The position numbers and the translations under genes are program-made. This document shows, in pieces, positions 34,271 through 63,322 of a DNA stretch of 64,000 nt. The notes under the pieces are model-generated. The model made no database searches. It had not been told where the DNA came from and saw only the letters and a list, made by a program, of their open reading frames with translations. Each line of letters begins with the position of its first letter. The stretch's first letter is position 1. The stretch is from Rhodospirillaceae bacterium (GTDB taxonomy: Bacteria; Pseudomonadota; Alphaproteobacteria; MPNO01; UBA2964), in NCBI GenBank assembly GCA_002720855.1, contig PBIN01000009.1, forward strand, positions 62,001 through 126,000, given 5' to 3'.

Positions 34271-34448
34271 CTGCCAAATTGTGACTTATTTCTGCGAAAA
34301 ATCGCGCTGTTTGAGCGAATTTGAACAAGCCTGGTTAGACAAATTGCGAAGTAAAAAACGCGATTAGAGGATTTTCTCTCTCCAATGAGGCGATTTCTCG
34401 ATGGTTTTTGGGTATTTCCGTGAAGCCGGTCGTGAGGCGTAATGCAAT
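34271..34448. other. Intergenic region between mraZ operator and rnpB 3' end
   Basis: The gap between the mraZ coding start and the rnpB 3' end is about 309 bp. Apart from the MraZ boxes and promoter it is AT-rich and holds no open frame worth calling. A T-run on the minus strand (TTTTTT near 34354-34359) follows a weak AGAG/CTCT hairpin and might end rnpB transcription, but the stem is too short to call a terminator. Confidence 0.5.
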
Positions 34449-34840
<392 letters not shown>

Positions 34841-46909: not shown

Positions 46910-47383
46910 ATGTCTGGAAGAGTTGAAGCACGACTAAAGGAATTGGGAATTGAGTTGCCGGAGGCGCTGGAGCCGAAGGTCGCAAAAATCAAGGGTTCGA
47001 ACATTGCAGGCCCCTTTTTGTATATTTCAGGGCAGGTTCCACAATGGAATGGTGATATGCCCTACATTGGCAAAGTCGGTCGCGAATTTAGTATAGAGCA
47101 AGGTTATGAGGCAGCTCGTCTATCGGCATTGAACGTAATCGCTCACGCCAAAAAAGCGCTGGACGGTGATCTTGATCGGGTCGTGAAGCTTGCCAAGCTC
47201 AAGGGATACGTCAACGTAACTTCTGATCTCGCCGAGGTGGCGGCTGTGGTCAATGGTGCCTCTGAGCTAATGGTGGATGTGTTTGGGCAGGAGGTCGGCG
47301 CGCACGCAAGAACCGTCGCTGGCGTTTCCTCGATGCCCTTCAACGTAGCTATCGAGGTGGAAGCAGACTTTCTTATTGAATAG
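46910..47383 (+). CDS. RidA family protein
   Basis: This 157-residue protein belongs to the longer YjgF subfamily (YjgH/TdcF-like type). It has GPFLYISGQVPQWNGDMPYIGKVG, LNVIAHAKKALDGDLDRVVKLAKLKGYVNV and the C-terminal RTVAGVSSMPFNVAIEVEADF. These proteins hydrolyse reactive imines, and members of this subfamily often lack the active-site arginine of archetypal RidA. It overlaps the mug 3' end by 11 bp. It is distinct from the shorter RidA at 40029. Confidence 0.9.
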   Translation: MSGRVEARLKELGIELPEALEPKVAKIKGSNIAGPFLYISGQVPQWNGDMPYIGKVGREFSIEQGYEAARLSALNVIAHAKKALDGDLDRVVKLAKLKGYVNVTSDLAEVAAVVNGASELMVDVFGQEVGAHARTVAGVSSMPFNVAIEVEADFLIE

Positions 47384-47912
47384 CGCGTTCGCGGGCGAAA
47401 GCTGCAAGCGACTGCCACGGTGCAATATCCCAATATCTGATCGCCAAACCCGATGGCGAAGGCAACACGAAAATACGGGTTTTACCAATGGTCTCGGACT
47501 GCAGACCGTAGGGCATATTTTTTTTGCTAAAATGTGTTTTGAAAAATACTTGCGCCGACCGTTTTCCAACGAATGCAAGCGCCTTTGGTTTAAATTTGGA
47601 GATTTCATCCAAAACACGATGCGGGTCGTCTGCGTCCTTCGGTAATGACGCATCGCTTCCATAAACGTGTTTCGCCATATCGGTAAAGCCAATTCCAAGT
47701 GCGGGGAGTAAGGAATACTCCTCCGGCGCGAAAAGGCGGGGCGTAAGGCCGGTCTCGAAAAGAGCAGGCCAAAACTTGTTGCCTGGACCAGCGTAGTACG
47801 CCTGCTTTTTCGCAGAGACGGTTCCGGCGGCGCTACCACAAAAGACGACCAGGAGGCCTTTTTCCAATAAATCAGGCAGTATTGGCGGTGGCGAATCGGT
47901 CGTTTCATTCAT
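47373..47912 (-). CDS. mug: Mug-family mismatch-specific uracil-DNA glycosylase
   Basis: The 179-residue protein aligns with E. coli Mug: LVVFCGSAAG corresponds to the VVFCGINPG motif, then NKFWPALFETGLTPRLFAPEE, FVGKRSAQVFF, and the second motif LPSPSGLA. It would remove uracil or ethenocytosine opposite guanine. The first motif lacks the usual catalytic asparagine (INPG is replaced by SAAG). I chose the Met at 47912 (MNETTDSPP); an extension to 47930 adds only six residues. Confidence 0.85.
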   Translation of the reverse strand: MNETTDSPPPILPDLLEKGLLVVFCGSAAGTVSAKKQAYYAGPGNKFWPALFETGLTPRLFAPEEYSLLPALGIGFTDMAKHVYGSDASLPKDADDPHRVLDEISKFKPKALAFVGKRSAQVFFKTHFSKKNMPYGLQSETIGKTRIFVLPSPSGLAIRYWDIAPWQSLAAFARERAIQ

Positions 47913-47942
47913 GCGCCGAATATACGGCAATCAGGCCTCAAG

Positions 47943-50735: not shown

Positions 50736-51740
50736 TTAGCCGCCGGTAACGCTCATATGACGGGGAACCGAGGGATCTCTCCGTCGGCGGTCAATGATGA
50801 AGTCGTGGCCTTTCGGTTTACGGCCGATTGCGTCGTCGATGGTGTTCATCAGGGCGGTGCCATTATCCTTGGCCCTCACGGCAGTTCTAAGATCAGCCGT
50901 GTCCTCCTGACCTAAACACATATACAGAATTCCGGTACAGGTAAGACGAACTCTATTACAGCTTTCGCAGAAATTATGGGTCATCGGCGTTATGAAGCCG
51001 ACCCGTCCGCCGGTTTCCTTGACCTCGACATATCTCGCCGGGCCGCCCGTGGAATAATCGATATCCCTGAGGGACCAGCTCTCATTCAATTTTGCACGGA
51101 CCATGGAAAGAGGCATGTACTGACCGAGACGGGCCTCTTCGCCAATTTCTCCCATCGGCATGACCTCAATGAATGTGAGATCGAACCCTTCATCCCCGCA
51201 CCATTGTACTAAATTGTTGAATTCATCGTCGTTGAAACCACGCAGCGCAACGGTGTTGATTTTAATCGCAATTCCGGCACGTTTTGCGGCGTTTAGGCCC
51301 GCTTTTACTTTTTCAAGACGGCCCCAACGTGTGATTTCTGTAAATTTGTCTTCTTCGAGCGTATCAAGAGATACGTTGATCCGGCGGATACCGATATCCG
51401 CCAGCTCATCAGAAAACCGCTCAAGTTGACTGCCATTGGTTGTCAGGGTGAGTTCGTCTAGAGCACCGGTGACAAGATGTCTCGACAACTGGCGGAATAG
51501 CCACATTACATCCCGGCGGACAAGCGGTTCGCCGCCCGTCATCCTGAGTTTGGTAACGCCACGTTCCACGAACGTCGAACAAATAACCTCTAGTTCCTCA
51601 AGGGACAGGACATCTTTTTTGGGAAGGAACGTCATATCTTCCGCCATGCAGTAAAGACAGCGGAAATCGCATCGGTCCGTGACCGATACGCGCAAGTAGG
51701 TCACCGCTCTTCCATGCGGATCTATTAGGGGTCCATCCAT
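50736..51740 (-). CDS. moaA: GTP 3',8-cyclase MoaA
   Basis: MoaA is the radical SAM enzyme that starts molybdenum cofactor synthesis. The first cluster is in [11 protein letters not shown] and the second, C-terminal cluster in [21 protein letters not shown]. The protein ends in the GG that the enzyme needs. The ATG at 51740 ([11 protein letters not shown], 334 residues) has GAAGGA 8 bp upstream; 11 extra residues to 51773 are unlikely. It stands apart from other moa genes but next to the other Mo-related genes of this region. Confidence 0.96.
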
Positions 51741-51848
51741 AAAATTTTCCTTCACCCTATCGGTAAAGAACACGATAGCGCTATATACCGCTGAATATAG
51801 CGCTCCTAAGCCAAAAGAAAAAGGGGTCTAAATACTGGCGCGCGATTC

Positions 51849-53288: not shown

Positions 53289-53570
53289 CTAGCTGCGAAA
53301 TTCAGGAAAAGTTACTTGCGCTATTTCGTTGAACTCATCATTACGAAAAACAAAATACCCCTCACGACTGGCATGATAAATAGCTGGGAGTCGTTTTATC
53401 AGGGCAGCAGGAATAAAATTCCCGTCGAGGCGAGATGGGCTGTGGTTTTCGGAATCGACCGCAGAAATTTCCTCGGTGTTTTTTGAGGACTGCAAATCCT
53501 CTTCAGAACCCCGGCTATCAGCAATGCTGTATAGCGTATGTTTGTCTTCTGGCGAGACTGTTGCCTCCAT
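53289..53570 (-). pseudogene. 5' fragment of the same histidine kinase, ended by an in-frame TAG
   Basis: This 93-residue frame starts MEATVSPEDKHTLYSIADSR, is acidic, and enters a PAS-like segment (LIKRLPAIYHASREGYFVFRNDEF) before a TAG stop at 53289-53291. The codons directly after the stop stay in the same frame and lead into the downstream kinase (Glu-Arg-Arg-Glu-Gln-Ser-Arg-Pro, then the TTG at 53264). It is best read as the N-terminal end of one gene of about 573 codons (51849-53570) with an amber codon inside the first PAS domain. This could be a real nonsense mutation, a sequencing or assembly error, or readthrough. Confidence 0.75.
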
Positions 53571-53791
53571 TTTTTATCTTATATTTCGCCAGGGCGCCCC
53601 TTCGATTGCCCGTCCACGCGTACTACCTCTGGAAATGAGTGCGGCCAACTTTCTATGCCGCAACCCTCACCATTCGACCAACCCCAGTTACGAATTACAT
53701 GATCGAATTGACTGTAGCTAAATACCTTACACCGCAGTTCATTGCTAGCATTTCTGTTGCTCACTGCCTAACGACAGTACATATATAATTC

Positions 53792-54658
53792 ATGAAAGAT
53801 TTTCTGATTTCGCCCAATCCCGATGACACCAAGCTCACCGAGCAGGTGCGTGGTGTTGATCATGATGGCAATACGGTCGATACGAGCGTAACCGTAGAAC
53901 GTCCTCTTACTCTGTTTCTCAACGATCAGGAAATCGTCACAATGATGACGATTGGGGATTACCCAGACTGTCTGGCTATCGGATTTCTCCTTAACCAGAA
54001 TATGTTGCAGCAGGACGATAACGTTACCTCAATCGATTACGACCCCGAAATTGATACTGTTGTCGTCCGGACCGAACGCGAAACCGATTACGAGCAAAAA
54101 ATGAAGAAAAAGACCCGGACATCCGGGTGCGCCATCGGTACAGTGTTTGGCGATGTTATGGAAAAGTTTGAAGATATTGTCCTCGATCCGGACGCCGAGT
54201 TGAGAACATCTTGGTTGTATGAACTGACAAAGAAAATCAATGTCACGCCCAGCCTTTACCTCCATGCAGGCGCTATTCATGGCTGCGTTCTTTGTGCAGA
54301 AGACACTCCGTTGATTTATATGGAAGATGTAGGTCGGCATAATGCGGTCGATAAAATTGCCGGTTACATGTTTCTCAACGGCATCGGTCCTGAGCATAAA
54401 TTATTTTACACAACCGGACGCCTCACGAGCGAAATGGTCATTAAAACCGTGCAGATGGAGATACCTATTCTGATTTCACGATCCGGGTTTACCGCATGGG
54501 GTGTCGCTTTGGCGCGTCAGGCAAACCTAACTCTTGTCGGTCGTGCACGCGGGAAACGTTTTTTAGCTCTTTCGGGGGAAAATCGCATCGTATTCGATGC
54601 CGACCCAACAAAAGTTGTCGAAGAACCACCTCATCTACAGCGTAAAGCGGCTTCTTAG
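53792..54658 (+). CDS. fdhD: Formate dehydrogenase accessory sulfurtransferase FdhD
   Basis: FdhD passes sulfur from IscS to the molybdenum cofactor of formate dehydrogenase. The 288 residues show the family pattern: VERPLTLFLNDQEIVTMMTIGD, the active-site loop TSGCAIGTVFGDV (Cys113), LHAGAIHGCVLC and EDVGRHNAVDKIAGY, then TTGRLTSEMVIKTVQMEIPIL. The active loop has one cysteine rather than the two of E. coli FdhD. Its presence 1.6 kb from the FDH alpha subunit and next to mobA supports the role. Confidence 0.93.
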   Translation: MKDFLISPNPDDTKLTEQVRGVDHDGNTVDTSVTVERPLTLFLNDQEIVTMMTIGDYPDCLAIGFLLNQNMLQQDDNVTSIDYDPEIDTVVVRTERETDYEQKMKKKTRTSGCAIGTVFGDVMEKFEDIVLDPDAELRTSWLYELTKKINVTPSLYLHAGAIHGCVLCAEDTPLIYMEDVGRHNAVDKIAGYMFLNGIGPEHKLFYTTGRLTSEMVIKTVQMEIPILISRSGFTAWGVALARQANLTLVGRARGKRFLALSGENRIVFDADPTKVVEEPPHLQRKAAS

Positions 54659-54684
54659 GAACGCCTGGTATGAGTCGGTGATCG

Positions 54685-55278
54685 ATGGATTTGATACTGT
54701 ACTGGCGTGGCCCTGTTGGTCCCGGACAATTTCCAACTGACCCGGTTCAAATCGAGAAGATCAATCAGGCTGGAGTTTATCTAAGGATTAAACTGTATGA
54801 GGATGAGCGCAGTATAGCCTATATCGGCCAGTCACTTCATCTCGTAACAAGATTCGATCAGCACATTTCTGGACTATTGGCATTACAACACCCGCTTCGT
54901 GACGAAAGTGGGGAGGTAACGGGTGGTCCTGGAGCGGAAAGCCGCTTTCAAATCCTCAACGACGTCGCTCACGCCGGAAGTTTGGCGATCGCCGAAGCGC
55001 AAAGAACGCGATTTTATTTTGCAATGGCCCAGGACGGGTTTGATCAGGACTATCTAACCTTAATCGAGGCAATGCTTAAGTCCCGCGCAGAAAAAGTCAT
55101 GTATGATCGTCCCGAGAACATTCAAAACATTAACCCCGGAGAGTTCGATCACGATATTTCCATTGTTAGTGACTTCGCTGAAATTGATGATCAGGGCGTA
55201 AATTTAATCGAGAGAACGATCGGCATGGAACCCATTCTAATTCCAGCGCGGCAGGAGTCCTTTGAAAATGCCGATTGA
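54685..55278 (+). CDS. GIY-YIG-like predicted nuclease of unknown role
   Basis: I do not recognise a named gene. The N-terminal half of this 197-residue protein matches the GIY-YIG pattern: GVY at 30-32, YIG at 46-48, then Arg56 and His60 (RFDQH). A glutamate (Glu128, in LTLIEAMLK) and several asparagines (145-150) lie where the later catalytic residues are expected. The spacing between YIG and the Glu is long. It lies between fdhD and mobA and overlaps mobA by 11 bp, so it is probably co-expressed with cofactor genes. Nuclease activity and function are inference. Confidence 0.75.
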   Translation: MDLILYWRGPVGPGQFPTDPVQIEKINQAGVYLRIKLYEDERSIAYIGQSLHLVTRFDQHISGLLALQHPLRDESGEVTGGPGAESRFQILNDVAHAGSLAIAEAQRTRFYFAMAQDGFDQDYLTLIEAMLKSRAEKVMYDRPENIQNINPGEFDHDISIVSDFAEIDDQGVNLIERTIGMEPILIPARQESFENAD

Positions 55279-55891
55279 GAATGGCGTCTGTGGCCTGTTG
55301 TTGGCAGGTGGACAGTCACGCCGAATGGGTGGTGGTGACAAATGTTTGCGCGATCTTGCTGGTCAAACATTGTTATCGCGCGTAATTAGCTGTGCGAAAC
55401 CACAGGTAGAAGGCCTGGTCCTAAATGCCAATGGCAACCCGGCAAGATTTGAGGATTATCAGCTGCCTGTAGTTGCAGATGTCTTTGAAGGGTTTGCCGG
55501 CCCTCTCGCGGGAATTTTGACCGGGCTCGAATGGACCTTGGCAAACAGGCCCGACTGCAAATGGATTGCAAGCTTTGCTTGCGATGCGCCTTTTGCTCCG
55601 AGCGATCTCGTGTCACGCCTGTTGGAAGCGGTAAAAGAAGAGAAAGGTGATTTGGGTGTCGCTGTTTCCGGTCAACGCGATCAGCCTGTTTTCGGCCTGT
55701 GGCCTGTCTCGCTGGCGGCAGACCTTCGAAAGGCTCTTGCTGATGAAGAAGTTCGTAAGGTCGATGTCTGGACTGCGCGTTATAAATTGGTTCGTGTGGA
55801 ATGGAGTACCGAACCGGTAGATCCCTTTTTCAATGTTAATCGCAGCGAAGATCTTGACGCCGCAGAAGCGAATTTATCGAGGCTGTCTTGA
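55268..55891 (+). CDS. mobA: Molybdenum cofactor guanylyltransferase MobA
   Basis: MobA adds GMP to the molybdopterin cofactor, giving the bis-MGD form used by formate dehydrogenases. The 207-residue protein has the nucleotide-binding loop LLAGGQSRRMGGGDKCLRDL, a metal-binding region (ASFACDAPFAPSDLV) and the VNRSEDLDAAE C-terminus. The ATG at 55268 has AGGAG 10 bp upstream; a TTG six bases earlier is also possible. It overlaps the GIY-YIG-like gene and precedes the ModE-like gene by 32 bp. Confidence 0.94.
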   Translation: MPIENGVCGLLLAGGQSRRMGGGDKCLRDLAGQTLLSRVISCAKPQVEGLVLNANGNPARFEDYQLPVVADVFEGFAGPLAGILTGLEWTLANRPDCKWIASFACDAPFAPSDLVSRLLEAVKEEKGDLGVAVSGQRDQPVFGLWPVSLAADLRKALADEEVRKVDVWTARYKLVRVEWSTEPVDPFFNVNRSEDLDAAEANLSRLS

Positions 55892-55923
55892 CTGGTGCTA
55901 TAGCCTGGTAGTTTGATCGACCT

Positions 55924-56289
55924 ATGACAAAAGCACGCGAAGAGACGCCGACACTCAGAATTTTACTTGGGGCTGCGATTGCGCTGGGCCCCGGCAAAGT
56001 TGCTTTGTTGGAAGCTGTTGATCGCACGGGATCCATATCCGGGGCTGCACGGGAAATGGGAATGTCCTACCGGCGTGCCTGGAAACTGATTGAGGCCATG
56101 AACAGCGATTTCAAATCGCCTTTGGTTGCTACGAATGCCGGTGGTTCAGGCGGCGGCGGCGCGCAGGTAACGGCCTCAGGGTTTGAGGCTCTTCAAAGAT
56201 ACCGCTCTATGGAGCAAAAGGCGGGCAAGGCGGTACAGCGGGAAATATCTGATTTCGCAGATTTGCTTAAACCGACGCATAAAAGCTAG
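55924..56289 (+). CDS. ModE-like molybdenum regulator, DNA-binding domain only
   Basis: This 121-residue protein has the winged-helix domain of ModE/LysR type: GKVALLEAVDRTGSISGAAREMGMSYRRAWKLIEAMN, then a Gly/Ala-rich wing (TNAGGSGGGGAQVTASGFEAL). The C-terminal molybdate-binding (MOP) repeats of full ModE are absent. It probably regulates the molybdenum island. It ends 6 bp from the 3' end of the FDH alpha gene, facing it. Confidence 0.9.
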   Translation: MTKAREETPTLRILLGAAIALGPGKVALLEAVDRTGSISGAAREMGMSYRRAWKLIEAMNSDFKSPLVATNAGGSGGGGAQVTASGFEALQRYRSMEQKAGKAVQREISDFADLLKPTHKS

Positions 56290-56295
56290 GGAGTT

Positions 56296-59070
56296 TTACT
56301 CTGCGGCGGCGACGGTTGCCGTTGTGGTGGTTTCAACCCGCGCCGCACAGAACTTGAATTCAGGAATTTTGCCAAATGGGTCGAGCTGCGGATTGGTCAG
56401 GAAATTGGCCGGCGCTTCCGCATAACAGAACGGAATAAAGATTACCCCTTGAGGAACGGCTCGGTCTGCACGAGCCTTCAGTTCCAACATGCCGCGTCGG
56501 GTGGCCACCCTTACCATGTCACCTGGCCGAACTCCGAGATCGCGAATGTCCCGGAAATTTAGGCAAGCAATTGCTTCTGGCTCCAACTTGTCCAGTACTG
56601 AAGCACGACGCGTGATCGACCCTGTGTGCCAGTGTTCAAGCTGGCGGCCCGTGGTCAGTATCATTGGATAATCATCATCTGGGAGTTCAGCAGGCGGCAC
56701 GATGTCTGCAGCCACCATTTTCCCGTTGCCAGATTCCGTAGGAAATTTGTCGCCAAAAACAATCTCGTTTCCAGGCTCATCTAGGGAATCACATGGGTAG
56801 GTGACAGAGTTTTCCCGCTCAACCCTGTCCCAGGTGATGTTTTTCATTGATGGCATAATTTGCGACATCTCGGCAAAAACGTCGCTCGGGTGCGTATAAC
56901 TCCAATCAAGGCCAAGGCCGCGCGCCATTTCCTGAATTATCCACCAATCCTGACGAGTTTCCCCGTTCAAAGGTAATGCTCGCCGGCCCATCTGAACCTG
57001 GCGATTGGTGTTTGTAACTGTGCCATCTTTTTCCGGCCAGGCAGAGGCGGGCAAAACAACATCGGCATGATATGCTGTCTCGGTAAGGAAGATATCCTGC
57101 ACGACCAGCGTTTCGAGCTTGGAAAGTGCCTCCCGCGCGTGCTGCGCGTCAGGGTCGGACATGGCAGGGTTCTCACCCATTACATACATTCCGCGAATTT
57201 TTCCATTATGGACTTCATCCATAATCTCAACGACGGTTAGTCCGCGGTTTGGATCGAGCTCTGTATCCCAGAAATCCTCAAACTGCTTTCGAACGTCTTC
57301 TTTCGTGACCAGTTGATAGTCGGGGAAGAACATCGGGACGAGACCCGCATCGGACGCGCCCTGAACATTGTTTTGTCCGCGAAGCGGGTGAAGACCTGTG
57401 CCTTTCCGGCCAACCTGTCCGGTCATAAGGGACAAATCGATTAAACAACGCGCATTGTCAGTGCCATGAATATGTTGCGAAACGCCCATTCCCCAGAAAA
57501 TGATCGAAGCATTTGATTTGGCGTAGGTGCGAGCGACAGTGCGAAGCGTCTCCGCATCAATCCCACAGACCTCAGACATTTTTTCCGGCGGGAAATCGGC
57601 AAGATGTTTTTTGAGCTGCTCGAAACCCTCTGTATGTGCCTGGATGTATTGCTCGTCGTACAACCCTTCCTCGACGATCACGTGCATGATCGCATTGAGC
57701 ATCGAAACATCGCCACCGGGTTTGAACTGGAGCATATGCGTCGCGTGGCGCTTTAATGCCTGTCCACGAGGGTCCATTACAATAAGGGTTTTGCCCTCTT
57801 TAACTGCCTGTTTGAAGAAAGTTGCTGCGACGGGGTGATTTTCGGTCGGGTTGGCACCAATGACGATTATTACCTCGGCATCACGCACAGCAGTAAAGGG
57901 AGCAGTGACGGCTCCGGAACCGATACATTCCATCAAGGCGGCGACGGACGATGCATGGCAAAGTCGAGTACAGTGATCAACATTGTTGGTGCCAAAGCCG
58001 GTCCTAACAAGCTTTTGAAAAAGATATGCTTCTTCGTTGGACCCTTTTGCCGATCCAAATCCCGCGAGAGCGCCTCCACCATTTTGGTCCCGAATGGTCC
58101 GGAGACCTCCCGCTGCTCTTTCCAAAGCTTCTTCCCATGTGGCTTTGCGGAAATGCGTGTAAGGGTTGGCGGGATCAATATCTTCCTCAGGATTTTTTGG
58201 CGCATCGTCGCGTCTAATTAACGGCTCTGTCAGTCGATGGGGGTGATGAGCGTAATCAAATCCAAACCTTCCTTTGACGCACAAGCGATTTTCATTTGCT
58301 GGCCCCTCGCGTCCGGTGACGTACAAAAGCTTATCGTCTTTGAGGTGATAGGTAAGCTGGCAGCCCACACCGCAATAGGGGCAAACGGAGTCCACCGTGC
58401 GATCTGCCTGAATTCGGCCAGCCACCTCGTCTGACGTCACAGATTTCGGCAATAAAGCGCCGGTTGGGCAAGCCTGGACACATTCTCCACAGGCGACACA
58501 GGTGCTGTCTCCCATCGGATCATCTAGATCGAATACGATTTTCGCTTCGGAACCGCGTTGCGCCATACCGATTACGTCATTGACCTGTACTTCGCGGCAG
58601 GCCCGGACGCAGAGTGTGCAATTGATACAGGCATCGAGATTGACCGCCATTGCGGGATGGCTTGGATCCGCACTGGGTGTTTCTTTCGTGGGAAAGCGGC
58701 TGTCCTCTATACCTACTTTATCCGCCCAACGCCAAAATCTTGAATCGTCGTCGTGATGGCTGGTCCGGTCCGGTTGATCAGCAAGTAAGAGTTCAAACAC
58801 CATCTTGCGGGCATTTTTGGCTCGGTTGCTTGCTGTGGAAACCGTCATCCCCTCGGTTGGTTTGCGGATGCAGGAAGCGGCCAGGACGCGCTCGCCTTCG
58901 ATTTCCACCATGCAGGCACGGCAGTTTCCATCGGGGCGATATCCTGGTTCCGGCGCATAGCATAGATGCGGAATCTCAGTACCAACCCGCGCCGCGACCT
59001 GCCAGATGGATTCATCAGGGTCCGCGCTGACCGTTTGGCCGTCCAGTGTAAACTGTATTTTATCCGCCAT
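56296..59070 (-). CDS. NAD-linked formate dehydrogenase alpha (catalytic) subunit
   Basis: The 924-residue protein belongs to the molybdopterin oxidoreductase family. The N-terminus has a 2Fe-2S ferredoxin-like domain (IQFTLDGQTVSADPDESI), a NuoG-like cysteine/histidine cluster and a 4Fe-4S segment (CINCTLCVRACREVQ, CVACGECVQACPTG). The bis-MGD domain follows, with another Fe-S motif (CPYCGVGCQ) and DHCTRLCHASSVAAL, in which a cysteine occupies the usual selenocysteine position. It oxidises formate to CO2. The partner subunit at 61628-63322 passes electrons to NAD. The two genes are separated by three others. Confidence 0.95.
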   Translation of the reverse strand: MADKIQFTLDGQTVSADPDESIWQVAARVGTEIPHLCYAPEPGYRPDGNCRACMVEIEGERVLAASCIRKPTEGMTVSTASNRAKNARKMVFELLLADQPDRTSHHDDDSRFWRWADKVGIEDSRFPTKETPSADPSHPAMAVNLDACINCTLCVRACREVQVNDVIGMAQRGSEAKIVFDLDDPMGDSTCVACGECVQACPTGALLPKSVTSDEVAGRIQADRTVDSVCPYCGVGCQLTYHLKDDKLLYVTGREGPANENRLCVKGRFGFDYAHHPHRLTEPLIRRDDAPKNPEEDIDPANPYTHFRKATWEEALERAAGGLRTIRDQNGGGALAGFGSAKGSNEEAYLFQKLVRTGFGTNNVDHCTRLCHASSVAALMECIGSGAVTAPFTAVRDAEVIIVIGANPTENHPVAATFFKQAVKEGKTLIVMDPRGQALKRHATHMLQFKPGGDVSMLNAIMHVIVEEGLYDEQYIQAHTEGFEQLKKHLADFPPEKMSEVCGIDAETLRTVARTYAKSNASIIFWGMGVSQHIHGTDNARCLIDLSLMTGQVGRKGTGLHPLRGQNNVQGASDAGLVPMFFPDYQLVTKEDVRKQFEDFWDTELDPNRGLTVVEIMDEVHNGKIRGMYVMGENPAMSDPDAQHAREALSKLETLVVQDIFLTETAYHADVVLPASAWPEKDGTVTNTNRQVQMGRRALPLNGETRQDWWIIQEMARGLGLDWSYTHPSDVFAEMSQIMPSMKNITWDRVERENSVTYPCDSLDEPGNEIVFGDKFPTESGNGKMVAADIVPPAELPDDDYPMILTTGRQLEHWHTGSITRRASVLDKLEPEAIACLNFRDIRDLGVRPGDMVRVATRRGMLELKARADRAVPQGVIFIPFCYAEAPANFLTNPQLDPFGKIPEFKFCAARVETTTTATVAAAE

Positions 59071-59264: not shown

Positions 59265-60245
59265 ATGTCGATCCGCCAAAATCGCGACTGGGAAATCAAG
59301 GAATTCGAAGTCACCTCTGAAAGTGTTTATCGCAGCCGTCGGTCACTTTTGAAGTCGATGGGCATGGGCGGCTTAATCGTCGGTACAGCACCTCTGTTGG
59401 CTGCCTGTGAAGACAATACGCCCATCGTCTACGAGAATGATCCAAGCGCACCGCTCTATCCTGTTAAGCGGAATACGCGTTACGTATTGGATCGGCCCAC
59501 GACAGCTGAGAATTTGGCGACGACATATAACAACTTCTATGAGTTCGGGTCTCAGAAGAAGATATGGCGCGCCGCACAAGCATTGCCGCTTCGACCCTGG
59601 TTGGTTGAAATAGATGGGTTGGTCGAAAAACCCATTACCATTGCCATCGACGACCTATTAAAAAAGATGCCGTTGGAGGAACGGCTCTATCGTTTTCGAT
59701 GCGTTGAAGCCTGGTCGATGGCCGTACCCTGGTCAGGGTTCGCACTTAAAGCGCTGGTGGATTTCGCCAAGCCGCTTGGTTCGGCGAAATATCTGCAGAT
59801 GGAAACGTTTTTAAATCCGAAGAAAGCGCCTGGCCAGCGGCAGGGCTGGTATCCTTGGCCTTATCGTGAGGGGCTAACGATCGCTGAAGCAACCAACGAA
59901 TTAGCCTTCATTGCGACGGGTCTTTATGGAAAACCGATACCGAAACAAAACGGTGCACCGCTCAGACTGGCTGTTCCTTGGAAATACGGCTTTAAGTCCG
60001 TCAAATCGATTGCCCGGTTTACCTTCACGGAGCACCGCCCCGTGACGTTTTGGGAAAAAGTGCAGGGACAGGAATATGGGTTTTGGGCGAACGTAAATCC
60101 GAAAGTGTCGCATCGGTGCTGGAGCCAGGCAACTGAGCGGGTTTTAGGAAAAAGAGGTCGCGTCGCAACCCAACTATTCAATGGATACGGCGATTACGTC
60201 GCCGATCTGTACAAGGGTATGGAAGGCGAACGCCTATACACGTAG
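59265..60245 (+). CDS. msrP: Protein-methionine-sulfoxide reductase catalytic subunit MsrP
   Basis: MsrP (YedY) is a periplasmic Mo-molybdopterin enzyme that repairs methionine sulfoxide in envelope proteins. The 326-residue precursor has a Tat signal (RSRRSLLKSMG, about 23-33) and a C-terminal sulfite-oxidase-type fold with the Mo-binding cysteine in RFRCVEAWSM (Cys146), followed by VPWSGFALKALVDFAKP. The start at 59265 (MSIRQNRDWEIKEFEV) is chosen because the 26 residues upstream are not conserved. The usual membrane heme partner msrQ is not found beside it in this window. Confidence 0.94.
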   Translation: MSIRQNRDWEIKEFEVTSESVYRSRRSLLKSMGMGGLIVGTAPLLAACEDNTPIVYENDPSAPLYPVKRNTRYVLDRPTTAENLATTYNNFYEFGSQKKIWRAAQALPLRPWLVEIDGLVEKPITIAIDDLLKKMPLEERLYRFRCVEAWSMAVPWSGFALKALVDFAKPLGSAKYLQMETFLNPKKAPGQRQGWYPWPYREGLTIAEATNELAFIATGLYGKPIPKQNGAPLRLAVPWKYGFKSVKSIARFTFTEHRPVTFWEKVQGQEYGFWANVNPKVSHRCWSQATERVLGKRGRVATQLFNGYGDYVADLYKGMEGERLYT

Positions 60246-60267
60246 AGCCTCGACAAAGGAGCAGAAC

Positions 60268-60732
60268 ATGACAAAATTTTTTAAATCCGCAGCGGCAGTA
60301 TTTGCTTTCGTTCTTTTGTTGCCCTCAATGGCTGCAAATTCTGCAAGCTACTTCAATAAATCGAGCTGGACAGGCGTTGCGATCGACGGAACGGACCCCG
60401 TTGCCTATTTTACTGAGAGTAAGCCGGTCGAGGGATCGAAGAAGTTTTCCTATAAGTGGCAAGGAGCAACCTGGCGTTTTGCCAACGCGGATAACCTAAA
60501 TAAGTTTAAAACCTCTCCAGAAAAATATGCGCCCCAATATGGTGGATTTTGTGCCTATGCGGTGAGTGAGGGGTATACGGCATCGATCGATCCAGAAGCG
60601 TGGTCGATTGAAAATGGCAAACTCTACCTGAATTACTCCAAATCAGTTCAACAGATCTGGTCTCAGGATATTCCAGGTCGCATTCGCAATGGCGATAAAA
60701 ACTGGCCTGGCATCAAAACCAAGCTCCTTTAA
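60268..60732 (+). CDS. Periplasmic YHS-domain protein
   Basis: This 154-residue protein has an N-terminal signal peptide (MTKFFKSAAAVFAFVLLLPSM). A YHS domain follows: GTDPVAYFTESKPVEGSKKFSYKWQGATWRFAN and KYAPQYGGFCAYAVSEGY. YHS domains are small metal-binding modules, often found with copper or heavy-metal proteins; the metal is not known here. It starts 22 bp after msrP on the same strand, with an AGGAGC site before the ATG at 60268. It overlaps the amidohydrolase 3' end by 20 bp. Confidence 0.88.
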   Translation: MTKFFKSAAAVFAFVLLLPSMAANSASYFNKSSWTGVAIDGTDPVAYFTESKPVEGSKKFSYKWQGATWRFANADNLNKFKTSPEKYAPQYGGFCAYAVSEGYTASIDPEAWSIENGKLYLNYSKSVQQIWSQDIPGRIRNGDKNWPGIKTKLL

Positions 60733-61627: not shown

Positions 61628-63322
61628 CTATTTCACGTCGTCCGGAAAATATTTGAAAACGGAATTCAGACCGTTTGTCGCCGCTTGGCCGAGGCCGCAG
61701 ATAGACGCATCAGCCATCGTCGTTGCCAAATCCTCTAAAAGTGGTTTGTCCCATTTTGGCTGTTCCAAAAGTTGAACAGCTTTCTCGCATCCGTTTCGGC
61801 ACGGGGTGCATTGGCCACAGCTTTCATCTTCAAAAAACTTGAGCAGGTTCAGGGCGACATCTCCGGTGGAATCCTCTTCCGATAATATGATGACGGCCGC
61901 GGAGCCAATCAGACAGCCATATTGTTCGAGGGTACCAAAATCCAGTGGCTCACTATCCATGCTGGCTGGCAAGATTCCGCCCGATGCCCCTCCTGGCAAA
62001 TAACCCTTGAAGCTATGGCCTTCCTCCATGCCGCCGCAATATTCCTCGATGAGTTCGCGAACCGTGATGCCGGCTTCCGCAATCTTTACGCCCGGTTCTT
62101 TAACGCGACCAGAAACCGAAAAGGTCCGGAGTCCCTTCGAGCCATTCCGTCCTTTGTCTGTAAACCAGCTCGCACCTTTTTGAACGATATCGCGTATCCA
62201 ATAGAGTGTTTCAACATTGTGAATAAGTGTTGGACGCCCGAAGAGACCAACCTGCGCAGGAAACGGTGGTTTGTGTCGGGGAAGGCCGCGTTTGCCTTCA
62301 ATAGACTCCAGCATTGCGGATTCCTCGCCGCAGATATAGGCGCCTGCGCCGCGCCGCAATTGAATACGTCCCGGTTCGGCAAGACCAGCGGCTTCACATT
62401 TCGGCAGCTCGCGTAGAAGAATTTCGCGAATTTCGGGGTACTCATCGCGGAGATATATGTAGATCTTTTCTGCTTCTACGGCCCACGCGCCGATGAGCAT
62501 TCCCTCCAAAAAACGATGAGGGTCGCGTTCAAGAAACCAACGGTCCTTAAATGTTCCAGGCTCTCCCTCATCGGCGTTCACTGCCATAAAGCGGGGGCCA
62601 GCCTCAGCCCGCACAAATGTCCATTTACGTCCGGACGGAAACCCAGCGCCACCCAAGCCCCGTAGGCCAGACTCATTTAGTATGTCGACGAGTTCCTCAG
62701 GAGTGCGTTTGTCCTCAAGACACTCACGTAACAACGCGTAACCACCGTCATTTTCATACCGATCAAAATCGACATAATCAGGCAGCTCCGAATGCGTCCC
62801 ATTTTCCGCGGCTTTCAGCGCCCTTCCGGCAGTCGCCGGGGCGATTTGAGCATGGCCAATAGCAACGGCAGGAGCCTTGTCACAAGCGCCCATACAGGGA
62901 GCCCGCAAAACGCGGACGTTTGATCCTGCCGTGTTCGCAAGCTCGGTGATCAGTTGTTCGGAGCCAAGCAATTCGCAGGTGACACTGTCACAAACCCGGA
63001 TAGTCACCGGTGGCGGTTTTTGTGTTTCGTCAGTGACGACGTCGAAGTGGGCATAAAAGGTGGCAACTTCGTACACTTCGGACAACGCCATTTTCATTTC
63101 ATCAGCGAGTGCGACCAGATGGTCAGCGGATAGACATCCGAACTTGTCCTGAACAAGATGCAAATGCTCAATAAGCATGTCGTTTGTCCGGGGTGAATCG
63201 CCTAGTAGAGCTTGGATATCATCCAGCGCATCAGCATCCAGTTGCCGACCTTTTGGATGAGATGCACCGCGTCCACCCCGGCCGGGGTGCGAATGTCTTC
63301 TCACGGATTTACTTTTGGCCAT
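61628..63322 (-). CDS. NAD-linked formate dehydrogenase, fused NuoE/NuoF-type subunit
   Basis: This 564-residue protein fuses a NuoE-like thioredoxin-fold 2Fe-2S domain to a NuoF-like domain. The 2Fe-2S cysteines appear in VCDSVTCELLG and APCMGACDKAP. The NuoF part has RGLGGAGFPSGRKWTFV (FMN site), AYICGEESAMLESIEGKRG (NADH region) and CGQCTPCRNGC (4Fe-4S). It would accept electrons from the alpha subunit and reduce NAD. The first 30 residues are basic and Gly/Arg-rich (RRHSHPGRGGRGASH). It lies 2.6 kb from the alpha gene. Confidence 0.93.
   Translation of the reverse strand: MAKSKSVRRHSHPGRGGRGASHPKGRQLDADALDDIQALLGDSPRTNDMLIEHLHLVQDKFGCLSADHLVALADEMKMALSEVYEVATFYAHFDVVTDETQKPPPVTIRVCDSVTCELLGSEQLITELANTAGSNVRVLRAPCMGACDKAPAVAIGHAQIAPATAGRALKAAENGTHSELPDYVDFDRYENDGGYALLRECLEDKRTPEELVDILNESGLRGLGGAGFPSGRKWTFVRAEAGPRFMAVNADEGEPGTFKDRWFLERDPHRFLEGMLIGAWAVEAEKIYIYLRDEYPEIREILLRELPKCEAAGLAEPGRIQLRRGAGAYICGEESAMLESIEGKRGLPRHKPPFPAQVGLFGRPTLIHNVETLYWIRDIVQKGASWFTDKGRNGSKGLRTFSVSGRVKEPGVKIAEAGITVRELIEEYCGGMEEGHSFKGYLPGGASGGILPASMDSEPLDFGTLEQYGCLIGSAAVIILSEEDSTGDVALNLLKFFEDESCGQCTPCRNGCEKAVQLLEQPKWDKPLLEDLATTMADASICGLGQAATNGLNSVFKYFPDDVK

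Follow-up and report, generated by a model that had tools for sequence, protein, structure and literature searches.

A conserved stand-alone GIY-YIG family protein between fdhD and mobA in alphaproteobacteria: a candidate accessory nuclease of a molybdenum cofactor gene run

What does a protein that looks like a nuclease do inside a set of genes for the maturation of the molybdenum cofactor (Moco)? The question is raised by a gene, here termed X, in a stretch of 64,000 nucleotides from a Rhodospirillaceae bacterium (contig PBIN01000009.1; this whole stretch is hereafter called the window). X occupies positions 54685..55278 of the + strand, begins with an ATG codon, encodes 197 amino acids, and lies between fdhD and mobA. 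The original prediction, made from the letters of the DNA, had recognized features of a GIY-YIG nuclease in this open reading frame and had asked if its location pointed to a new function or to a repurposed fold. We consider it reasonably likely that X represents an uncharacterised, stand-alone GIY-YIG family with a complete active site that serves as an accessory nuclease of the fdhD-mobA run.

Fold and active site of X

The assignment of X to the GIY-YIG fold is, for a prediction from models and sequences, secure, since structural matches, a profile comparison, the residue pattern and a shuffle test all lead to it. AlphaFold2 models of X itself (P0001; pLDDT 88.8, pTM 0.86) and of the most distant member of the family (from genome G252; pLDDT 89.8, pTM 0.86) were compared with VIA-align to chains of the Protein Data Bank (PDB) that had been preselected by Foldseek. 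GIY-YIG chains fill the best 15 rows for P0001 (Z 6.6 to 2.9) and the best 9 rows for the G252 model (Z 6.3 to 4.2), and unrelated chains start at Z 2.7 and 2.9, respectively; the best matches of both models are therefore GIY-YIG domains. The highest-ranking chain for P0001 is the N-terminal domain of a plant Grx (2lwf; Z 6.6, root-mean-square deviation (rmsd) 3.3, 94 aligned positions), followed by the homing endonuclease I-TevI (Z 6.5, rmsd 2.9, 86 aligned), T4 EndoII (Z 5.7, rmsd 3.2, 99 aligned), UvrC (Z 5.0, rmsd 3.2, 86 aligned), PD-T4-3 (Z 4.3, rmsd 3.1, 89 aligned) and Slx1 (Z 3.0, rmsd 4.3, 88 aligned). It is on the matches to I-TevI, UvrC, EndoII and PD-T4-3 that the structural identification of X is based, and the G252 model finds the same four (I-TevI, Z 6.3, rmsd 2.9, 87 aligned; EndoII, Z 5.7; UvrC, Z 4.5; PD-T4-3, Z 4.2). 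The rows for the plant Grx, EndoII and HIGLE were classed by us on the assumption that these chains are GIY-YIG domains.

The original prediction had named GVY, YIG, Arg56, His60 and a Glu further on, which corresponds to Glu128; all of them are present, and Asn145 can be added. The core spans residues 30-60 (54772..54864, + strand; GVY at 30-32, YIG at 46-48). In the 27-row alignment A2, which does not include five later-found members (G769 and G772-G775), Tyr32, Tyr46, Gly48, Arg56 and Asn145 are invariant (27/27 rows each), His60 is kept in 26 rows and replaced by Tyr in the remaining one, and the first Gly of the motif (G30) is found in 24 of the 27 rows. A Tyr at the position of His60 is, we presume, also what UvrC possesses. 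Glu128, the presumed metal ligand (codon 55066..55068, + strand), is a Glu in 26/27 rows; the deviating protein, that of G042, carries an Ile at this position, preceded by a Glu at a distance of four residues and followed directly by an Asp, a deviation that may reflect a shift in the alignment. Asn145 (codon 55117..55119, + strand) is taken as motif E of the superfamily, whose motifs are described in PMC1564403; according to the accessible part of that study, motif E, the terminal Asn, varies between families. Outside of the classical core, X carries an invariant N-terminal LxWxGP stretch (residues 5-10; 54697..54714, + strand), in which Leu5, Trp7, Gly9 and Pro10 are each found in 27/27 rows.

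The spaced pattern GxY...YxG...R...H/Y arose in only 10 of 500,000 shuffles of the X protein, and it occurs in just one of the 448 stop-to-stop frames of at least 60 amino acids in the window, the frame of X itself. Profile searches with the single protein fall short: it scores 13.4 bits against the Pfam GIY-YIG profile PF01541 (cut-off 22.6), has no credible match in NCBIfam, and finds no relative in PDB sequence searches, the best hits of which (E 0.07 and 0.43) are unrelated proteins. When E values up to 1 are admitted, PF01541 is matched by 11 of 23 family members (best 0.019); a single member matches GIY_YIG_2, at 8.9e-4. When the profile of the X family was aligned by hhalign to that of three GIY-YIG proteins from the same genome, the probability was 65.5% (E 5.8e-5) over the core, against 0.2% (E 0.34) for the MobA control. 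The GIY-YIG likeness that had been proposed for X fails as a single-sequence match and holds when profiles or folds are compared.

X shares with the GIY-YIG superfamily (PF01541; I-TevI, the N-terminal domain of UvrC, T4 EndoII, Slx1) the predicted core fold, with its central sheet and catalytic helix, and the succession along the chain of the GIY, YIG, Arg, His/Tyr, Glu and Asn positions. It differs from these proteins in its low single-sequence score, its own N-terminal LxWxGP stretch and a C-terminal extension, in that no partner domain was found in it, and in its location in a Moco gene run. The segment between His60 and Glu128 is presumably also longer than that of I-TevI or UvrC.

X is a real, constrained protein under purifying selection: among 14 pairs analyzed with the NG86 method, 12 have ratios of non-synonymous to synonymous substitution (dN/dS) of 0.06-0.33, with the lowest ratio coming from a pair whose dS of 3.57 is near saturation, and two pairs are saturated. 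At the same time, it diverges faster than its neighbours when judged by identity to the window proteins; across the members from families f2 and f3, X retains 37.7-40.7% identity, MobA 59-65% and FdhD 68-76%, while the median end branches of the trees are less different (0.2 for X, 0.27 for MobA, 0.15 for FdhD). The mean column identity of the 27-row alignment is 47%, and its two most distant rows share 22 and 24% identity with X over the whole protein. In a protein that diverges this fast, the catalytic residues rank with the most conserved positions, which argues for a retained phosphodiesterase or nuclease chemistry and speaks against the repurposed fold that the original prediction had considered.

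Linkage of X to fdhD and mobA

Profile scans of the neighbouring genes agree with the original placement of X between fdhD and mobA. The fdhD gene (53792..54658, + strand), encoding the sulfurtransferase for the formate dehydrogenase cofactor, matches Pfam FdhD-NarQ above the cut-off (6.4e-73), and its NCBIfam fdhD_narQ score of 135.9 bits is slightly below the cut-off of 140.9. The mobA gene (55268..55891, + strand), encoding the molybdopterin guanylyltransferase, exceeds the cut-off of NCBIfam molyb_mobA (203.9 bits) and matches Pfam NTP_transf_3 (1.7e-35); we placed its start at the ATG of position 55268, the list of open reading frames giving a TTG at 55262. Only 26 nucleotides (nt) separate fdhD from X, and the 3' end of X overlaps mobA by 11 nt. 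The short gap and the overlap suggest that X is co-transcribed with its neighbours and perhaps translationally coupled to mobA. A promoter scan of positions 53500-56400 reported one site versus 3.3 expected.

The homologues of X sit beside the same genes in other genera, families and orders, as the original prediction had wondered. Relatives were initially gathered from 22 genomes besides the window's own, among 61 examined, and more were added later; a scan of genome contigs returned one relative, locus L024, which is the same locus as that of genome G003. X is now found in 32 genomes, and mobA and/or fdhD adjoins it in 32/32 (mobA in 31, fdhD in 29). These carriers belong to four orders, those of the window, of G107, of G042 (one genome sampled) and of G252, a genome absent from the lists for the other three. 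In the window's order, X is present in 22/27 genomes at one constant place, with mobA next to it in 22/22, including one genome in which mobA is cut by the contig end (G005) and one in which X is divided between two contigs and its 3' portion adjoins mobA (G024). The fdhD gene adjoins X in 21/22 of these genomes and has a match in 23/27 genomes of the order; in G017, no fdhD match was found and the contig ends just before X. Five genomes in this order lack X: in G009 and G025, fdhD directly neighbours mobA, and G011, G015 and G016 yielded no fdhD match. The order of G107 has X in 8/22 genomes, beside mobA in 8/8 and beside fdhD in 6/8. In G107 itself, a solute-binding-protein gene, assigned by reading, replaces fdhD, and the sole fdhD match among those listed is weak (E 5.9e-16) and located elsewhere in the genome; in G775, another open reading frame stands in place of fdhD, and mobA is kept. 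Conversely, fdhD adjoins X in G252, where an ankyrin gene (again by reading) follows instead of mobA; no mobA match for this genome, which is 80% complete, is among the matches listed.

A search of a class-wide sample returned profile matches in 10/385 genomes, of which eight were counted as genuine, the window's own genome and two of its genus among them. The weak matches in G215 and G198, both to GIY-YIG-like proteins, were discounted and stand outside the 32, as no fdhD or mobA was found in the 16,001 and 8,493 bases, respectively, around them. The G215 locus (L152:2552-3151) encodes a GIY-YIG-like protein with an N-terminal WxGP start near Fic-like and WYL-like genes (by reading), and the WxGP type may thus be wider than Moco loci. 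A search of the phylum matched 2/398 genomes, the window's own and G094, the latter over 37 model positions (E 7.6e-4) and dropped; the 22 rows listed in this search are all from the same class, so that it says little about other classes.

The junction between fdhD and mobA was surveyed in the class sample, in which 207 genomes had any fdhD match and the 137 fdhD rows down to E 3.9e-26 (135 genomes) were used; a pair was counted when a listed mobA lay downstream on the same strand at a distance of no more than 6 kb, a weak, unlisted mobA leaving its fdhD unpaired. Among the matches listed, there are 103 pairs, 83 of them with a gap below 300 nt; six gaps of 601-652 nt hold X, and 14 gaps of 471-1822 nt hold other genes. 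A GGDEF diguanylate cyclase with a CZB-like N-terminus was recognized by reading in nine of these 14 genomes, from three families (loci L137-L141 and L143-L146; genomes G130, G401, G324, G235, G300, G085, G316, G393 and G113); of four such proteins scanned with Pfam, all exceed the GGDEF cut-off and two that of CZB. CZB is a metal-binding domain, and the slot gene could tie cyclic di-GMP signalling to molybdenum/tungsten (Mo/W) or formate metabolism. GNAT acetyltransferase genes follow fdhD in four genomes of one family (L136, L144, L145 and L146; by reading), and both of the two proteins scanned exceed their Pfam cut-off. The slot of G082 holds a gene for a restriction-endonuclease-like DUF559 protein (L133:1683-2060), which makes it another nuclease-like occupant of this junction; that of G156 holds a DUF29 gene, and those of G399 and G322 encode membrane-like proteins without a Pfam match. 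In view of these varied occupants, the fdhD-mobA junction is a place that accepts different genes in different lineages.

X is therefore no general Moco gene and is not conserved wherever the pathway genes occur: in most cases fdhD and mobA adjoin each other with no X between them, some relatives retain the pair but lack X, and the same slot holds unrelated genes elsewhere. On a tree of FdhD and MobA from 60 genomes (26 with X and 34 without, X carriers being over-sampled), the presence of X changes at least six times, the backbone being otherwise poorly resolved. On this tree, the branches of G009 and G025 lie among those of the X-bearing genomes of the window's order, so that their lack of X looks like loss. 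At locus L131 of G009, where X is missing, two ModE-type matches lie close together downstream of mobA. The tree of X itself groups its six f3 rows, the nine rows of a genus of family f1 and four of the five f2 rows, and this grouping suits a vertical inheritance of X within families. In G042 and G252, X shares only 28 and 23% identity with the window protein, whereas FdhD shares 75% in both, a discrepancy suggesting that X evolves fast in these lineages or was acquired more than once.

Possible functions of X

By analogy with the superfamily, X is probably an active, Mg-dependent nuclease. In such a reaction, Glu128 would hold one Mg or Mn ion, the Tyr/His pair would activate the nucleophilic water, Arg56 would steady the phosphate, and a phosphodiester bond, most likely that of a nucleic acid strand, would be cut. 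In certain lineages of alphaproteobacteria, X may have settled between fdhD and mobA and may have been retained there as a co-expressed accessory nuclease. Production together with the maturation genes of a Mo/W formate dehydrogenase is in our view more likely than a chemical step in cofactor synthesis, although X could possibly take a direct part in cofactor maturation.

Several observations weigh against this accessory nuclease. As to the fold, all VIA-align Z values are below 8, a range for which the tool warns that a common arrangement of structural elements can produce them; Foldseek gave no match under E 0.5 against the PDB, with unrelated chains ranking first, and weak ones only against viral models (best E 0.031, to an unnamed protein; the second, E 0.066, to a GIY-YIG homing endonuclease), and the hhalign probability is only moderate. 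As to the location, three of the four genomes of the window's order that have no fdhD match lack X, the fourth being G017 with its contig edge, and in three cases (G107, G775, G252) X has kept one of the two genes as its neighbour although the other does not adjoin it. This persistence, and the absence of X where no fdhD match was found, would be easier to understand if X had a functional connection with Mo/W metabolism than if it were a mere passenger.

The alternative that profits from these last observations, possible although rather doubtful, is that X is a maturation or quality-control factor of the pathway leading to Mo/W-bis-molybdopterin guanine dinucleotide (bis-MGD), which would cut the dinucleotide linkage of the cofactor or dock onto FdhD or MobA and thereby remove or recycle faulty cofactor. 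The placement beside fdhD or mobA, kept in four orders of the class, favours it as well. However, most genomes with fdhD and mobA carry no X, three of them (G009, G025 and G335) keep the adjacent pair without it, and G107 retains X despite its weak fdhD match. The flanking genes of X belong to the families that make up the FdhD/MobA maturation module of formate dehydrogenase in Methylorubrum extorquens (MeFDH1), but the pathway, as described in the accessible part of PMC13197769, includes no nuclease, and the word 'nuclease' appears 0 times in that text. The titles and opening lines of abstracts among the literature matches listed contain no paper about a GIY-YIG protein or nuclease in connection with fdhD, mobA, the molybdenum cofactor or formate dehydrogenase; one listed paper, a review on coenzyme A, includes all three terms sought. 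To our knowledge, no GIY-YIG enzyme acts on a cofactor, which counts further against such a factor.

It is unlikely that X is an anti-phage or restriction-like nuclease that came by chance to lie in a well-placed operon. The idea draws on the candidate defence protein PDC-S14 of PADLOC, whose model PDLC04925 matches all 23 members of alignment A1 with E values no higher than 1 (best 1.1e-7) and 3/3 further members from family f85, and with which X shares the GIY...YIG...R...H stretch. The PDC-S14 profiles, however, have 280-320 positions and X has 197 amino acids, and the match extends over about 40 residues; in P0001, residues 22-62, the shared GIY-YIG core, cover only profile positions 56-97 of 301, well short of a whole-profile match. 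The G252 member has no match to PDLC04925. In their accessible parts, PMC10855318 describes the PDC systems as uncharacterised so far and PMC11719660 merely lists PDC-S14. GIY-YIG defence enzymes do exist, as the accessible part of PMC12923530 describes, and the type IV restriction enzyme PD-T4-3/CMoRE shares the catalytic fold with X and is among its structural matches (Z 4.2-4.3); P0001, however, reads GVYLR, in which the third Tyr is missing, and its Pfam scan revealed no second domain. X shows no evident sensing domain, and it occurs, in contrast to what one would expect of a defence gene and to PDC-S14, in one stable gene run, with a single fixed place in 22/27 genomes of the window's order. 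Furthermore, a tblastn search with P0001 found no plasmid or phage match, and the G042 and G252 members have none in plasmids.

Also unlikely is a GIY-YIG phosphodiesterase that acts on bis-MGD or on an intermediate bound to FdhD or MobA, that is, a proof-reading or recycling enzyme for the cofactor built on a DNA-nuclease fold. A homing endonuclease or another selfish gene settled between fdhD and mobA is disfavoured and very improbable: the fold is that of homing endonucleases and the distribution in the class is patchy, as the state changes on the FdhD and MobA tree attest, but the Pfam matches of 23 members include no DNA-binding extension of the NUMOD kind, X is intact and constrained and is flanked by complete genes instead of lying in an intron, and no relative was found in viral contigs (none among 35 stretches with the pattern), phages or plasmids. 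The least credible proposal, that of a GIY-YIG fold that has lost its catalytic activity and now serves as a scaffold or an RNA-binding regulator, could appeal to the position inside a biosynthetic operon and to the suggestion of the original prediction, but the catalytic residues are invariant or nearly so in a protein whose overall identity falls to the low twenties of percent. The accessory nuclease of the fdhD-mobA run thus remains the reading that we prefer; the original observation is confirmed and its interpretation partly supported.

The wider gene run and its meaning

The same-strand run containing X ends with a gene for a single-domain, ModE-type DNA-binding protein (55924..56289, + strand), identified by profile scans in which it scores 88.7 bits with NCBIfam ModE_repress (cut-off 98.5) and 34.5 bits with Pfam HTH_1 (cut-off 26.6). 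Convergent to it is the gene for the alpha subunit of formate dehydrogenase (56296..59070, - strand; NCBIfam Fdh-alpha, 742 bits, over the cut-off), and a probable diaphorase subunit of this enzyme, with 2Fe-2S thioredoxin-like and Nuo51-like parts according to Pfam, is encoded at 61628..63322 (- strand). Beside formate dehydrogenase, the gene of a YHS-domain protein (window 60181-60732) overlaps an Oxidored_molyb (MsrP/SoxC-like) gene, a pair that is present in several genomes of the window's genus. Upstream of fdhD, on the opposite strand, lies moaA (50736..51773, - strand; Pfam Mob_synth_C and Radical_SAM). Two aminotransferase genes separate moaA from a gene of the Uracil-DNA-glycosylase family (window 47373-47930), which is also found in the neighbourhood of relatives. 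An Rfam scan of the window reported no Moco riboswitch over the gathering score, only an RNase P RNA of class A (34446-34839, - strand; 324.9 bits).

The X family was given no name by Pfam and NCBIfam here; its active site is evident and its genomic neighbourhood is conserved. Mo/W cofactor maturation limits the use of formate dehydrogenases for CO2 reduction. Should X affect formate dehydrogenase, it would represent an unexpected added step in the maturation of this cofactor; should it have no effect on the enzyme, the fdhD-mobA junction would be a slot in which accessory genes are parked, and a caution for the assignment of gene functions through guilt-by-association.
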